This document shows, one piece after another, positions 4,644-29,728 of a stretch of DNA of 33,621 nt (position 1 is its first letter; every line of letters starts with the position of its first letter). The stretch is from an uncultured Eubacteriales bacterium (lineage in GTDB: Bacteria; Bacillota; Clostridia; Monoglobales; Monoglobaceae): NCBI GenBank assembly GCA_948468535.1, contig CAOKIL010000009.1, positions 1 to 33,621 of the forward strand. Reading direction: 5' to 3'. The translations under genes were made by a program, and so were the position numbers. Below the pieces are notes generated by a model that saw only the letters and a program-made list of their open reading frames with translations, had not been told where the DNA came from and did no database searches.

Positions 4644-4928
4644 GCGTGACAGAGACATACGATGAACTCGGAGGTGGCAAACCTGCGTAAATACGCTGGT
4701 TTGGAAATTTCGGGGGAGATTGTCCGGTTTTCAAAACAGGGCGGAAGGTCACACTTAAAACAGAATACACCTATGCCTTTTTTGCATTATGCTGGTGCGA
4801 ATGTGCGTAGTACTGTGTTAATTCCACCCGAATTATGCCTGTTTGGCGGCAATTTCGGGTTTAATTTTGTAACCGTGCGAAACGCCCGGCACGGTGTAAA
4901 CTTATTACAATAAGGAGGGTACATTTTC
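4644..4928 (+). promoter_or_regulatory. Structured 5' leader of the S10 operon
   Basis: About 285 nt of mRNA leader with no convincing gene. Hairpins visible: AAACCTGCGT/ACGCTGGTTT (4679-4688 with 4693-4702, one T-T mismatch); a long arm 4826-4834 with 4851-4860 enclosing GCC/GGC; and ACCGTGC/GCACGGT (4872-4878 with 4889-4895) with the 10-nt loop GAAACGCCCG. The last hairpin is about 17 nt before the rpsJ ribosome site, so it could affect rpsJ translation. S10-operon leaders in other bacteria bind L4; whether this one does is unknown. An 83-codon frame (4662-4913) is judged spurious. Confidence 0.55.
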
Positions 4929-10267: not shown

Positions 10268-10636
10268 ATGGTACAACAGCAAACTATTTTAAAGGTTGCT
10301 GACAACAGCGGTGCTAAGGAAATTCTTTGCATCCGTGTAATGGGCGGTTCGTTCAGACGTTACGGAAACATAGGCGACGTTATTATCGCTTCTGTTAAAA
10401 AAGCAACGCCCGGCGGCGGTGTTAAGAAGGGTGATGTTGTTAAGGCTGTAATCGTTCGTACAAAGAACGGTGTTAAGAGAAATGACGGTTCTAAGATATG
10501 CTTTGATGAGAACGCAGCAGTTTTAATCAGAGATGACAAGACACCGAGAGGCACTCGTATATTTGGTCCTGTTGCAAGAGAACTCAGAGACAAGGATTAT
10601 ATGAAGATATTATCTCTTGCACCTGAGGTACTCTAA
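10268..10636 (+). CDS. rplN: 50S ribosomal protein L14
   Basis: Forms an intersubunit bridge and is the binding site of the silencing factor RsfS. The 122 residues include [26 protein letters not shown] and the conserved [23 protein letters not shown] end. It is the last gene before a 530-nt non-coding interval; in most Firmicutes rplX follows almost at once. Confidence 0.98.
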
Positions 10637-10880
10637 AATTTGCATTTATCTCGGAGGTTCGGATTATTTGCGTATAGAATATACGCGGCATACTCCTGCA
10701 CCATCAAGCTAAACACAAATTTACAATTTACACTCATCCGGTTCGGCGGTTCGAGTTACTTGCGTATCTTGATACGCGGCGTAGCTCTGCACCATCAAGC
10801 TAATTAAATAATTTACATTTTACATCTATCACAGTGGTTAGGATTACTGGTATAATATATGCAGTAAGAATCCTGCACCA
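10637..10880 (+). repeat. Three tandem copies of an unrecognised, covarying RNA element
   Basis: Core units at 10656-10702, 10748-10793 and 10836-10879 (period 92 and 88 nt). Each runs GGT, 2 nt, a 5-6-nt arm, an inner hairpin, the partner arm, TGC, ACC, so GGT/ACC closes a nested stem. Outer arms: GGATTA/TACTCC in copy 1, GAGTTA/TAGCTC in copy 2, GGATT/AATCC in copy 3. Inner stems: GCGTATA/TATACGC, GCGTATC/GATACGC, ACTG/CAGT. The changes are compensatory, which indicates selection for RNA structure. The internal-loop bases (TC or TA opposite TGC) are conserved. Copies 1 and 2 share TGCACCATCAAGCTAA at the 3' side, and units 1 and 3 align over the 19 nt before GGT. No T run follows, so these are not terminators. 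No coding frame of note crosses the region. Confidence 0.72.
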
Positions 10881-11166
10881 CCTAAAAAGGCGTCAAATGC
10901 GAAACGCTCGGCTCCTCGTAAGGTGTAAAAATGTAAAAACAACAGTGCAATGCAACCGGTTTGAGATGAAGATGTGAAAGACCTAAAAGGGTTGAATTTG
11001 AGTTATTTGAGATATAAATTCGATTTAATTATAGCGCAATGATGATTGCGGATGCACTTGCTGAGAGTTTGCGATATTGTAACACAAGATTCGTTAACCA
11101 CGTTTAGCTGTGCTAACTTATGAAAATTGCTTCGGTAATTTTCTGAATATGAATAGGAGGAATACA
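10881..11166 (+). promoter_or_regulatory. Remainder of the rplN-rplX gap: rplX leader with several hairpins
   Basis: Starts with a 17-nt motif (10898-10914) nearly identical to one in the S10 leader, bracketed by CACCT (10878-10882) and AGGTG. Further hairpins: CGCAAT/ATTGCG (11035-11040 with 11045-11050) and, shortly before the rplX ribosome site, GAAAATTGC/GTAATTTTC (11122-11130 with 11135-11143, one G-T pair) closed by a cUUCGg tetraloop. A weak internal promoter is possible (TTGAGA 11007-11012, 17 bp, TATAGC 11030-11035) but is far from consensus. No gene was seen. Confidence 0.5.
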
Positions 11167-25400: not shown

Positions 25401-28400
25401 TTACTGTTGAAGGCACTTTAACAAGTGGATATTCAACAGCAGGAATTGTCAGCAGAAACGATGGTACTGTAGAGAGCTGTGAAAGTAATGTTACAGTAAC
25501 CGGCAGTCAGTATGCCGGTGGAGCAGTTGGCATAAATACAGGAACAATAATAGGTGTTAATAATATTGGTGATATAACATCAAGTCAGTATGTCGGGGGA
25601 ATAGCAGGACATAATATTGTCGGTGGCACGGTAGAGAATAGCAAAAATGCAGGAAACATAACAAGTATAAGCGGAGGCGATTATGCTTACGCCGGAGGAA
25701 TAGCAGGATATAATAACAGAGCTGCAGTAAAGGCGTGTATTAATGATGGAACAGTTGTAGGAAGCGGAAATTATGTCGGCGGAATATCAGCATATAATTA
25801 TATTTCCACGGTACAGGCTTGTGTTAATAATGGAGCAGTTACAGGAGAAAATTATAATATCGGCGGAGTAGTTGGAAGTAATCACACTGGTATAATAGAA
25901 TACAGCAGTAATGCCGGAGAAATAAGAGGAAAAGGTTCTTTAGGTGGAGTTGCAGGAAGTAATGTATACGAAAGTACAATAAAAACCAGTCATAATAGCG
26001 GGTCGATAGCTGAAGGTACTTCATCAGGAATAGCAGGATACAATAATGATAGCAAAATAGAAAATTGTTATAATGCCGGAGCAGTAAATGGATGCGGAAT
26101 AATAGGGGCAAATAGCAGAGGTTCTGTAAGTAACTGTTATAACTGTGGAGATGTTACCGATTACGCAGTTGCCGGTAATGCCGGAACGATAACAAACTGC
26201 TATTACCTTGACACCTGTGGAGGTGCAGGAAACGGCACACCTATAAGCAAAGAAGAACTTGCGAAAGTAGAGACATTCGTTAACTGGGACTTCAGCGGTA
26301 TCTGGAAGATGGATAAGACGCTTGGCAGACCGATACTGAGGAACGAGTTAGCGCCGACAGCAATAACAGGAAGCGGAACGAAGGAAGATCCGTATGTAAT
26401 CACATCAGCGGAAGGCTTAAAAGAGTTAAGCGAAAACGTGAATGACGGCAATAACTATGAAGGACAGTATATAGTGATTACCGAAGATATCGACTTAAAC
26501 GGAAGCGAAGAGAATCCGTGGATGCCGATAGGAACAACTGAAAATCCGTTCAGCGGAACGTTCAGCGGAGGCGGACATAAGATAATCGGCGTGCATGTAA
26601 ATGATGAGAGCGGCGAGAATAAAGGTTTGTTCGGCTATAACAAAGGCACGATAGAAAACGTTGTTGTAACAGGCAGTGTAACGGGCGGCAATAATGTCGG
26701 AGGAATAGTAGGCTGCAATGAAGGAACAGTAAAGAACTGTGGAAACCTGAGCGATGTAACAGGTAAAAACAACGTAGGCGGAATAGTAGGCGAAAACAAA
26801 GGAACAGTAGAGAACTGCTACAGTATCGGCAATGTGACCGGAGACAGCAATGTCGGAGGAGTAGCAGGCAATAACGAAAGCGGCAAAGTAACAAACAGTT
26901 ACTATAACAAAGAAGCATACACACCGGAGGATAAAACCGAGGGTGTAAGCGGCAAGAATACCGAATCGTTCAGAAACGGAGAGGTAACATATCTGCTGCA
27001 GTCATCACAAACAGAAACTGATGAAAACGGAAGCATAAAGCAGGTATGGGGCCAGGATTTGAGCGGCGAAGCTGTAGAGACATATCCGATAATCAGCAGC
27101 GAGGATTCCAAGAAGGTATACAAAGCATCGTTTAAATATGAGAAGGACGGAGAGTATAAAGAATATGCCGCGCAGTATGCAAATGCAGGAGGAAGCTTCA
27201 CAGTTCCTGAGAGTAATCCGGGAACAGAATACTACAGATTCGACCACTGGACAACGAATGCAGATGACATTACATTAAAGTATGAAGGAACAGCAAGCGT
27301 AACAGAGGATGTAACAGTGTACGCAGTGGGAGAGAAGCAGAGCATAAATCTGGAACCGGGCTCAAGCGTAACAAATAAAGGAACAACAATAGAAAACAAT
27401 AATGACGGAACGGTAACGATCAAGAAGGAAGACGGAAGCACAGCGGATATAACAATAACATTGCCGGAAAACGGAGAAGTGAGTGCGGACGAAGATAATA
27501 ACGTAACAGTACCGCCGGGAAGTAAGATAGATACCGGAAACGGAACAGAAATCACGCTTCCGACCGGAGGAACAATAGACAAGGACGGAAACATAACCGG
27601 TGAAGTGATAAAAGTGGGAGAAACGACAATCACAGCGCCGGAAGGCGGAAAAGTAAGCGCCAATAGAGATGGAGAAACAGAAGCAGCTGAAGGCAGCAAG
27701 GTAGAAAAAGACGGAGCAAGCGTGACAATTGACAGCGGAAAAGGAAAGGTGGATAAAGAAGGAACAATAACATTCCCTGAAGGCGGAGAAGTAACGGTAG
27801 ATGACGGAATCACAACAAAGCAAGAAGTGATAGAGCCAAACGGAACGGTAATACCGATGCCGGCGCCGACAGCAACACCGGAGCCAACAGCCGAACCGAC
27901 AACGCTGCCGACGGCAGAACCAACAGCAGAACCAACAGCAAGCCCAAGTTCGGAACCAACATCAGAGCCGATAGTAGGACCGACAGCAGAAGCAACGGCA
28001 AGCCCAAGTTCGACACCGGACGCAGGTTCAGAGACAAATCCGACGCCGAACCCGACAGAGGGAGCAACATCAACACCGATAGCAGAAGCAACGGCAAGCC
28101 CAAGTGCAACACCGGATACAGGTTCAGAGACAAATCCAACGCCGAACCCGACAGAGGGAGCAACAGCAACACCGATAGCAGAAGCAACGGCAAGCCCAAG
28201 TGCGACACCGGACGCAGGTTCAGAGACAAATCCGACAGCAAATCCGAGCGAAGAGCCAACAGCAACCCCGACAGCAGAAGCAACGGCAAGTCCAAGTGCA
28301 ACCCCTGATGCAGGTTCAGAGACAAATCCGACAGCAAATCCGAGCGAAGAAGCAACAGCAACCCCGGTAGTTGAAGCAACAGCAAGCCCAAGCGCAACCC

Positions 28401-29728
28401 CGGATGCAGGTTCAGAGACGAATCCGACAGCAAATCCGAGCGAAGAACCAACAGCAAGCCCGAGCGCAGGAATAACACTTCCGGTAGTTTTAAATCCGGG
28501 TGAAAGCATGAGCAACGGAGGAGTTAATATCTCTAATAATACTGACGGAACAGTTACAATAGACAATGATAATGACGGAAATGTTGAGGTAACTATTACA
28601 CTGCCTGAAATTGGAAACGTAACAGTTAACGAAGATAATAATGTAATAGTACCGGGAGTAAGTAAGGTAAAGACCGAGGACGGTACAGAAATCACACTCC
28701 CGAGCGGCGGTATATTAGACAAAGAAAGCAACATAATCGCAGGCACAGTAGAAATAGGAGATATAACTATTATAGCGCCGGATGGAGGCAAGGTTGTAAC
28801 CAATAAGGGAGGCAACACAAATATACCAACAGGCTCAACAGTTAAGAAGGATGACACAATCGTCATAATAGAAAGCGGAAACGCAGTAGTGAAAAATGAC
28901 GGAGAGGTAACATTCCCTGAAGGAGGAACAGCGACAGTAAAGACCGGAGATACAGAGAAAACAGTTACTGTAGAGGAGAACGGAACAATAAGTCCGAATC
29001 CGATACCGACAGGAACACTGCCGCCGATATCGCCGACGCCGAGACCGCACAGACCGGGAATATCATCAGGCGGCTGGATATCGTCAGCAACACCAAAGCC
29101 GACAGAAGCAGTGGCGCCTGAAGTAACGGAAGCACCGACAACAGAGGCAACCCCGAATCCGACAAATATACCTACGGATGTAAGTTCATTTACAGATATA
29201 AATGAGAAAGAGTGGTATTATTCATCAGTAAAATATGTTCTTGAAAATGGACTGATGACAGGAACAAGCGGAACGAGCTTTGCGCCTGAAACAGAAATAA
29301 CAAGAGGAATGTTTGTAACGGTACTGTATAGGCTGGAAGGAAATCCGGAAGCAGAAAGCAATTATACATTTGCAGATGTGTCGAAGGAAGAATACTATAG
29401 CAAAGCAGTAGCGTGGGGAAGCCAAAACGGAATAATAGAAGGATATTCGGCAGATGTATTTGCACCGAATGAAAACATACTCCGTGAACAGATGGCAGCG
29501 ATAGTATATCGTTACGCAAGATACAAGGGATATGACATAGGCGTAAAAGCAGCAGTAGGTTACGCAGATGCAGAAAGTATAAGCGAGTATGCAAAGAATC
29601 CTGTTGTATGGGCATCAGAAAAGGGAATAATAAACGGAAACGAAGATAATACATTCGCACCGCAGATGAACATAACAAGAGCAGAAACAGCTGCTATATT
29701 TGAAAGAGTTGCTGAAAAGCTAAAGTAA
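22442..29728 (+). CDS. Giant secreted GLUG-repeat protein with SLH cell-wall anchor
   Basis: A 2428-residue putative adhesin or surface-layer protein. A signal peptide (residues 1 to about 28, ending ITASA|EE) directs export. Four GLUG-type blocks follow (about 31-452, 469-880, 895-1298, 1308-1540), each opening with a 'DIDLGG...PIG...GTFDGNGHKISGLYI' unit (GTF at 91, 525, 953, 1372) and carrying roughly 4-10 GGI(A/V)G-N-x-G-x-I repeats, about 32 in all, expected to build beta-helices. Blocks 1-3 end in a 'WDFEGIWEM...GRP.L' closing motif. Then come an InlB/Flg_new-like repeat (about 1555-1630), an unrecognised domain (1637-1805), a Pro/Thr/Ala/Ser stalk (1806-2010), a second copy of that domain (about 2011-2185) and three SLH domains (2248-2428). 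Only SLH3 has the full TRAE motif; SLH1 has ITRG and SLH2 ILRE. SLH domains bind pyruvylated wall polymers in known cases. GGGAGG precedes ATG 22442. Ligand unknown. Confidence 0.93.
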   Translation: MKRKFISLITVISMICSMMPILSITASAEEYIAISNAEELVSFRDSVNSGSDYSGQIVKLTADIDLGGSEENQWTPIGTFVNASNNNPFAGTFDGNGHKISGLYINNASSYQGLFSYNMGTIKNLTVEGEVTNTYSYKAGIVGRNEGTIENCINNVKVTGGNYVGGIAGCNTGTIVDSNNIGEVSGNQYVGGIAGQSDTTGIIESSKNNGTVTCTFSGRNGSVYVGGIAGQNNGKITSCTNIATVIGVSQGSNIGGIVGTNVNGTISNSINRGAVIKCGSYTGGIAGSNNVGTIENSGNTGEITGTIAGGVVGYTYGASIIKTSYNIGAVDGSNTAGGIVAVDREGTIQNCYNAGAITSKSTAGGITYGMNTKGKVQSCYNSGSITASSSYGLCHDYTQAENSFYLDICGARSDRQSGTNISLDKLADINTFSDWDFEDVWEMNEVLARPTLKSIQEEITTNYYIKDNPLIISTKEELEAFRDSVNNCNRYYGQYVILDADIDLGGSKENSWLPIGEYIRKPFVGTFDGNGHKISGLYINNASSYQGLFSYNMGTIKNLTVEGEVTNTYSYKAGIVGRNEGTIENCINNVKVTGGNYVGGIAGCNTGTIVDSNNIGEVSGNQYVGGIAGQSDTTGIIENSRNTGSVTSTFSGGNVYVGGIAGQNNGKVTSCTNDGAVKGNSGNYVGGIAGSNFGTVSNSVNNSGEITGSEIGGVVGTNYAGIIENCGNTGELTGSFVGGVTRNNTKEGKIRTSYNTGTINAQNTAAGIAIVNDNSEISNCYNAGALNGNTVAGITNSNGNNNRVIYSYNTGYLTGYNAYGLCFNSSVANSYFLDICGDKSGDRVNGTSITLDEFADINTFSDWDFEGIWEMSETLGRPVLKATVVDFYTEENPLIIASREDLEAFRDSVNNGNTYNKQYILVTADIDLGGSENNQWLPIGQYFGAYKSKPFTGTFNGDGHRISGLYINNTNSYQSLFSYNMGTIKNLTVEGTLTSGYSTAGIVSRNDGTVESCESNVTVTGSQYAGGAVGINTGTIIGVNNIGDITSSQYVGGIAGHNIVGGTVENSKNAGNITSISGGDYAYAGGIAGYNNRAAVKACINDGTVVGSGNYVGGISAYNYISTVQACVNNGAVTGENYNIGGVVGSNHTGIIEYSSNAGEIRGKGSLGGVAGSNVYESTIKTSHNSGSIAEGTSSGIAGYNNDSKIENCYNAGAVNGCGIIGANSRGSVSNCYNCGDVTDYAVAGNAGTITNCYYLDTCGGAGNGTPISKEELAKVETFVNWDFSGIWKMDKTLGRPILRNELAPTAITGSGTKEDPYVITSAEGLKELSENVNDGNNYEGQYIVITEDIDLNGSEENPWMPIGTTENPFSGTFSGGGHKIIGVHVNDESGENKGLFGYNKGTIENVVVTGSVTGGNNVGGIVGCNEGTVKNCGNLSDVTGKNNVGGIVGENKGTVENCYSIGNVTGDSNVGGVAGNNESGKVTNSYYNKEAYTPEDKTEGVSGKNTESFRNGEVTYLLQSSQTETDENGSIKQVWGQDLSGEAVETYPIISSEDSKKVYKASFKYEKDGEYKEYAAQYANAGGSFTVPESNPGTEYYRFDHWTTNADDITLKYEGTASVTEDVTVYAVGEKQSINLEPGSSVTNKGTTIENNNDGTVTIKKEDGSTADITITLPENGEVSADEDNNVTVPPGSKIDTGNGTEITLPTGGTIDKDGNITGEVIKVGETTITAPEGGKVSANRDGETEAAEGSKVEKDGASVTIDSGKGKVDKEGTITFPEGGEVTVDDGITTKQEVIEPNGTVIPMPAPTATPEPTAEPTTLPTAEPTAEPTASPSSEPTSEPIVGPTAEATASPSSTPDAGSETNPTPNPTEGATSTPIAEATASPSATPDTGSETNPTPNPTEGATATPIAEATASPSATPDAGSETNPTANPSEEPTATPTAEATASPSATPDAGSETNPTANPSEEATATPVVEATASPSATPDAGSETNPTANPSEEPTASPSAGITLPVVLNPGESMSNGGVNISNNTDGTVTIDNDNDGNVEVTITLPEIGNVTVNEDNNVIVPGVSKVKTEDGTEITLPSGGILDKESNIIAGTVEIGDITIIAPDGGKVVTNKGGNTNIPTGSTVKKDDTIVIIESGNAVVKNDGEVTFPEGGTATVKTGDTEKTVTVEENGTISPNPIPTGTLPPISPTPRPHRPGISSGGWISSATPKPTEAVAPEVTEAPTTEATPNPTNIPTDVSSFTDINEKEWYYSSVKYVLENGLMTGTSGTSFAPETEITRGMFVTVLYRLEGNPEAESNYTFADVSKEEYYSKAVAWGSQNGIIEGYSADVFAPNENILREQMAAIVYRYARYKGYDIGVKAAVGYADAESISEYAKNPVVWASEKGIINGNEDNTFAPQMNITRAETAAIFERVAEKLK
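22712..23054 (+). repeat. 343-bp exact direct repeat, copy 1
   Basis: By eye identical at every base to 24014-24356, with an offset of 1302 bp (434 codons, in frame). It encodes the GTFDGNGHKISG unit and the first GLUG motifs of block 1. Synonymous sites are identical too, so the duplication or gene conversion is recent. Confidence 0.9.
24014..24356 (+). repeat. 343-bp exact direct repeat, copy 2
   Basis: Second copy, in GLUG block 2. Outside it the two blocks diverge quickly, which favours local gene conversion over simple whole-block duplication. Recombination between copies would remove exactly 434 residues in frame. Confidence 0.9.
27986..28465 (+). repeat. Five tandem 96-bp repeats coding the Pro/Thr stalk
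   Basis: Five copies of a 32-residue unit (consensus AEATASPSATPDAGSETNP then T(P/A)NP, (T/S)E and a variable end), residues 1849-2008. Units differ slightly in both DNA and protein. The 96-bp length keeps the frame whatever the copy number. Confidence 0.92.

Follow-up and report, generated by a model that had tools for sequence, protein, structure and literature searches.

REP elements of the GTAG and CGTC families are dispersed extragenic palindromes of 20–40 nt, marked by a GTAG or CGTC tag, that lie just behind genes and recur at unrelated loci within a genome, usually in more than 100 copies (PMC2817692). They are found about 15–20 nt from stop codons, and their ends can provide the stop codon (PMC3733652, PMC12306157). 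Where a REP lies fewer than 16 nt from the stop codon, ribosome stalling and cleavage have been described (PMC12306157). A cognate Y1 transposase gene (RAYT) flanked by copies is the defining test of the REP/RAYT system. ERIC/IRU of enterobacteria is an imperfect palindrome of ~100–130 nt that is cotranscribed within operons, where it destabilises the upstream transcript in an orientation-dependent manner, and Correia RNA is a proposed RNase III target (PMC2229807). BOX, RUP, and SPRITE of pneumococcus are small, structured, mobile Gram-positive repeats with transcribed copies (PMC3049150). Leaders recognized by ribosomal proteins (L10, L13, L20, S4, S15, and others) are structured RNAs in ribosomal protein operons.

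Here we analyzed a window of 33,621 nucleotides, the whole stretch of DNA under study, from an uncultured Eubacteriales bacterium of the family Monoglobaceae. Three hairpins between rplN and rplX belong to a previously uncatalogued, widespread palindromic repeat family of Clostridia, akin in kind to REP and ERIC. Like REP, the element is dispersed, extragenic, and linked to stop codons, but it is ~100 nt long with conserved internal loops, and at most 19 copies were found in one genome. It is likened to ERIC by description and is distinguished by its tie to the stop codon; TA target-site duplications are known for ERIC. MITEs of the ERIC, Correia, and RUP type are non-autonomous, shorter than ~200 bp, and bounded by terminal inverted repeats; the present element is likewise under ~200 bp, far too short for a transposase gene, and its copies in g103 have the terminal inverted repeats AAGTTTGRATAAAATCG...CGATTTTCTYTCAAACTT. 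BOX, RUP, and SPRITE are over-represented between convergent genes, but the gene next to the present element is codirectional in 64 of 74 cases, which is the background frequency and indicates no preference. In contrast to ribosomal-protein leaders, the element does not lie at translation starts, is not confined to ribosomal protein operons, and matches no Rfam family.

Three hairpins between rplN and rplX

The ORF list shows that the window carries the S10–spc ribosomal protein operon. rplN (ribosomal protein L14; 10268–10636, plus strand), an orthologue of which is present in 33 of the family's 38 genomes, and the next operon gene, rplX (ribosomal protein L24; 11167–11487, plus strand), are separated by 530 nt, and the hairpins, all on the plus strand, fill the first 250 nt of this spacer. 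Folding and covariance model matches place copy 1 at 10630–10730 (core 10654–10704), copy 2 at 10721–10823 (core 10746–10795), and copy 3 at 10830–10882 (core 10834–10881); sequence and model search found no copy in the remainder of the enlarged spacer (10883–11166). Copy 1 is anchored by the rplN stop codon, at which its outer stem AAATTTG/CAAATTT starts.

The first-pass annotation had described three tandem hairpins at this site. They are present, and their folds surpass those of dinucleotide shuffles (z = −2.9, −2.9, and −2.5 for copies 1, 2, and 3, respectively), as does the whole rplN–rplX spacer (z = −3.8). The cores that it gave are correctly positioned, but the element is longer, with an additional outer stem and a unit of ~90–105 nt, copies 1 and 2 together occupying roughly 10630–10823. 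The GGA/TCC to GAG/CTC compensatory change that it had reported between copies 1 and 2 was confirmed, and a further change, T-A to C-G, was found at the base of the apical helix. In contrast, the A-T to C-G change that it had placed at the top of GCGTAT/ATACGC does not hold, because the pair in copy 2 would close a 2-nt loop; those bases (CTTG) form a tetraloop. The 3′ flank described as fixed corresponds to 17 nt of the 3′ arm, CTGCACCATCAAGCTAA, identical in copies 1 and 2, whose spacing is 91 nt. Copies 1 and 2 are a tandem duplication. Copy 3 is the most diverged and is recognizable in its core only; its arms have been replaced, yet they are complementary, as had been noted. The model score of copy 3 is partly circular because this copy was in the training set.

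A palindrome family in Clostridia

When the spacer was compared with 60 relatives by DNA BLAST, two short matches appeared, one of which, in a congener (L011), is the same hairpin in the rpsG–fusA spacer. The pattern of the hairpin apex is present in 9 of 12 genomes of the genus; all its matches in relatives lie in the rpsG–fusA spacer, including a tandem pair in G004, and the one left is copy 2 of the window. The 17-nt flank, used as a genome-wide marker, revealed no further copy of the element, and the two extra matches inspected were coding sequence.

A covariance model was built from the copies, followed by a second and a third, wider model (model length, 105). The first detected a fourth copy in the window's own genome, behind rpsG in the str operon, bringing the copies known in this 79%-complete genome to four. 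It also detected the element in the rpsG–fusA spacer of most Monoglobus genomes, and behind rplN and rpsG in genus g8. The second model matched 27 of the 51 genomes of the order Monoglobales. The third matched 32 of 391 Clostridia genomes at E ≤ 1e-4, representing at least seven families, and the 359 match-free genomes served as its negative control. In other Clostridia, two weaker matches lie at the stop codon of rpsG, which suggests that the family extends further. Looser scoring of single genomes yielded 16 copies in G320, 19 in G149, and 12 in G041. Model matches on the minus strand were rejected as separate elements, being the mirror image of the palindrome. The first-pass annotation had recognized no known riboswitch or leader in the hairpins; in agreement, Rfam 15 covariance models gave no match at gathering or relaxed thresholds. 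No description of the palindrome family was found in the literature searched, the coverage of which is incomplete.

The element is an imperfect palindrome of ~85–110 nt that forms one long interrupted hairpin. From the alignments, we infer the order A/T-rich outer stem, loop, middle stem, loop, upper stem, and apex. The loop after the outer stem appears to carry conserved AUCUY on its 5′ side and AAUCU on its 3′ side, and the loop above the middle stem is probably UUCG/CUGCA in Monoglobaceae and CA/CA in g103. Two putative types of apex can be distinguished, CUUGYGUA/UACRCGGC and CUCGSAUAU/AUAUASCUYG. Three species of family f48 (L087, L088, and L090) carry the element at one junction, apparently ruvA|ruvB, where ATTT/AAAT has changed to TTTT/AAAA in a compensatory manner.

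To the helices of 20 diverse copies, 82% standard pairs were assigned, compared with 66% after shuffling, and 25 of 37 pairs had double-sided changes. The rpsG–fusA orthologues alone gave 79% paired versus 64% shuffled, with double changes in 26 of 36 pairs. These pairing shuffles ignore relatedness; slid controls were only 34–51% paired, well below the observed values. Outer arms paired with their own partner at a mean of −5.95 kcal/mol, compared with −4.29 kcal/mol with arms of other elements. The outer helix stops at the model ends, and sequence past them paired no better than sequences of random elements. The strong covariation in homologues supports the earlier proposal of a selected, RNA-like fold that occurs three times inside an essential operon. 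However, a wobble test counted 30 G-U pairs versus 41 A-C mismatches in the helices. As G-U pairs are not in excess, this test gives no support for selection on an RNA rather than a DNA hairpin.

Stop-codon anchoring, dispersal and persistence

Among 107 nonredundant elements, 78 begin no more than 20 nt away from the stop codon that ends the sense gene upstream of them, and in all but one of these the distance from the stop codon to the 5′ end of the element was between −6 and +13. The remaining elements were mostly second or third tandem copies, or followed short or known ribosomal protein genes that the gene caller had missed. About 80 elements were in sense orientation and about 10 were reversed, nine of the latter in G041. 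The stop codon often lies within the outer stem. In g103 copies, the conserved end AAGTTTGAATAAAATC contains stop codons in two or more frames, and the one that is used differs between copies. In the rplN–rplX spacer of genus g8 (L165, 1860–1965; L163; L164), the codons with which rplN ends vary synonymously, GTG CTG TAA or GTT CTG TAA, and they covary with the distal arm, GCACTT or GAACTT, respectively; the coding end therefore seems to be part of the helix there.

The upstream genes, named by sequence recognition, include rpsG, rplN, rpsH, mnmE, pyrB, trkH, hpt, purL, ruvA, and that of an acyl-CoA synthetase. Junctions occupied in other Clostridia include ruvA|ruvB, mnmE, pyrB, trkH|trkA, hpt|gltX, and purL|fhs, with up to 16–19 unrelated loci per genome. 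Copies within G149 are 92–98% identical in unrelated flanks, and tandem arrays occur at other loci too. One intergenic region of G149 (L183, 1510–1815) holds three similar copies, two of them 98% identical, as an independent parallel to the trio of the window.

The rplN–rplX site itself is occupied variably. The nine Monoglobus congeners with a readable rplN–rplX spacer have 79–112 nt there and no element, and these empty spacers are too diverged from the filled site for a target-site duplication to be read. TA at the ends inside a stem is no proof of such a duplication because TA is self-complementary. In genus g8, the number of copies at this site is zero in one species, one in two species, and two in one species; a copy also lies at rplN in G041 (L147), which belongs to another family. 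On the other hand, at rpsG|fusA, ruvA|ruvB, and the 3′ end of the acyl-CoA synthetase gene, different species or genera have retained the element, and it shows compensatory changes between them. Near-identical copies in unrelated flanks together with the empty spacers of the congeners indicate a dispersed, stop-codon-anchored, REP/ERIC-like element. The distribution is that of a repeat gained and multiplied locally, yet long retained at some sites.

Probable origin and possible function of the trio

The family, its dispersal, its anchoring to stop codons, its structural conservation, and its absence from the rplN–rplX spacer of the congeners are observed. We consider it probable that the trio represents tandem copies of dispersed Clostridia palindromes that settle at stop codons, with the hairpin acting on the mRNA. 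One copy would have landed at the rplN stop codon in the Monoglobus lineage of the window and then been duplicated in tandem. Stop-codon anchoring and the sense orientation suggest that the element acts on mRNA at or after termination. The hairpin would form in the mRNA directly behind the terminating ribosome, where it could slow termination, block 3′ exonucleases, or present an endonuclease site, and the genes on either side would then differ in expression, as has been reported for REP and ERIC. Based on the stalling at REP, the destabilization by ERIC, and the RNase III proposal for Correia, we propose that the element modulates termination, processing, or 3′ stability and so uncouples neighboring genes. 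Of the functions offered by the first-pass annotation, a processing or stability element is the one that we prefer.

That the element is a purely selfish, MITE-like miniature, whose structure serves its own mobility and for which the stop codon is merely the least harmful site, with no gain to the host, is possible, and we hold it as a minority view. Near-identical copies at unrelated loci, tandem arrays, the presence of both orientations in G041, and the background frequency of codirectional neighbors are all consistent with it. Since the wobble test gave no RNA-level signal, the hairpin may also play its role as DNA or be maintained for purely selfish reasons. However, persistence at the same sites across genera with compensatory change, the strong preference for the sense strand, and stop distances almost wholly confined to −6 to +13 argue against selfishness alone.

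A farther-reaching form of the mRNA-acting palindrome is a class-wide, stop-codon-coupled, cis-acting RNA. Clostridia would have an RNA-binding protein or RNase dedicated to reading its sense-strand hairpin with conserved internal loops as the terminating ribosome leaves, and its copies would spread to new gene ends and then be kept to set operon expression ratios. We regard this form as rather unlikely. Bacterial dispersed palindromes are usually described as species-specific and short-lived, whereas the present family reaches across seven or more families of Clostridia, holds mainly one orientation relative to the stop codons at which it is fixed, and is kept at orthologous core-operon junctions across genera with compensatory changes. 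The family offers a direct test case of whether a mobile repeat has turned into a general operon-punctuation element in gut Clostridia.

Tandem use of the hairpins as autoregulatory sites bound by a ribosomal protein (L14, L24, L5, S8, or S7) is very improbable; a ribosomal-protein site and a tandem ligand sensor were both among the readings of the first-pass annotation. The element does occur in two operons of Monoglobaceae, str and spc, and, in other families, at rpsH|rplF and before rpsM. However, the same structure lies behind mnmE, pyrB, trkH, hpt, purL, ruvA, the acyl-CoA synthetase gene, and others, it sits at gene ends rather than translation starts, and the readable congeners do without it between rplN and rplX. 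The numerous unrelated intergenic copies that the first-pass annotation had said would refute its reading, as the mark of a mobile palindromic repeat, were found in relatives (16 in G320 and 19 in G149), although the genome of the window itself is known to hold just four. These results indicate that the three hairpins are very probably not a dedicated ribosomal-protein switch: the feature is real and its specific interpretation finds no support, which removes a false lead toward a supposed ribosomal-protein riboswitch.

We give equally little credence to the idea that the element is a member of the REP family whose hairpin, in single-stranded DNA, is recognized by a Y1 tyrosine transposase (RAYT) and so mobilized. 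The element is palindromic and extragenic, lies 3′ of genes, and may supply the stop codon, as REP does (PMC3733652), but at ~100 nt it is not within 20–40 nt. Moreover, Y1 transposase genes (PF01797) were absent from the copy-rich G149 and G320 and from G289 and G000, and no element was found within 1.5 kb of the Y1 genes of other genomes. A tandem ligand-sensing riboswitch or attenuator, to which the conserved internal loops and tandem arrangement might point, is barely credible, as the genes share no pathway, the sequences read show no terminator-type U tract behind the outer stem, Rfam contains no matching family, and the anchor is the upstream stop codon.

A different motif, GRAACRCYCGR, occupies the loop of a hairpin in the rpsJ leader (ACCGTGC-GAAACGCCCG-GCACGGT; window 4866–4905). 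It recurs in the rplN–rplX spacer after copy 3 (window 10895–10930) and in the same spacer of six species of genus g9, and may regulate the S10/spc operon as a separate element. Elsewhere in the window, five 96-bp repeats lie in tandem at 27979–28457.
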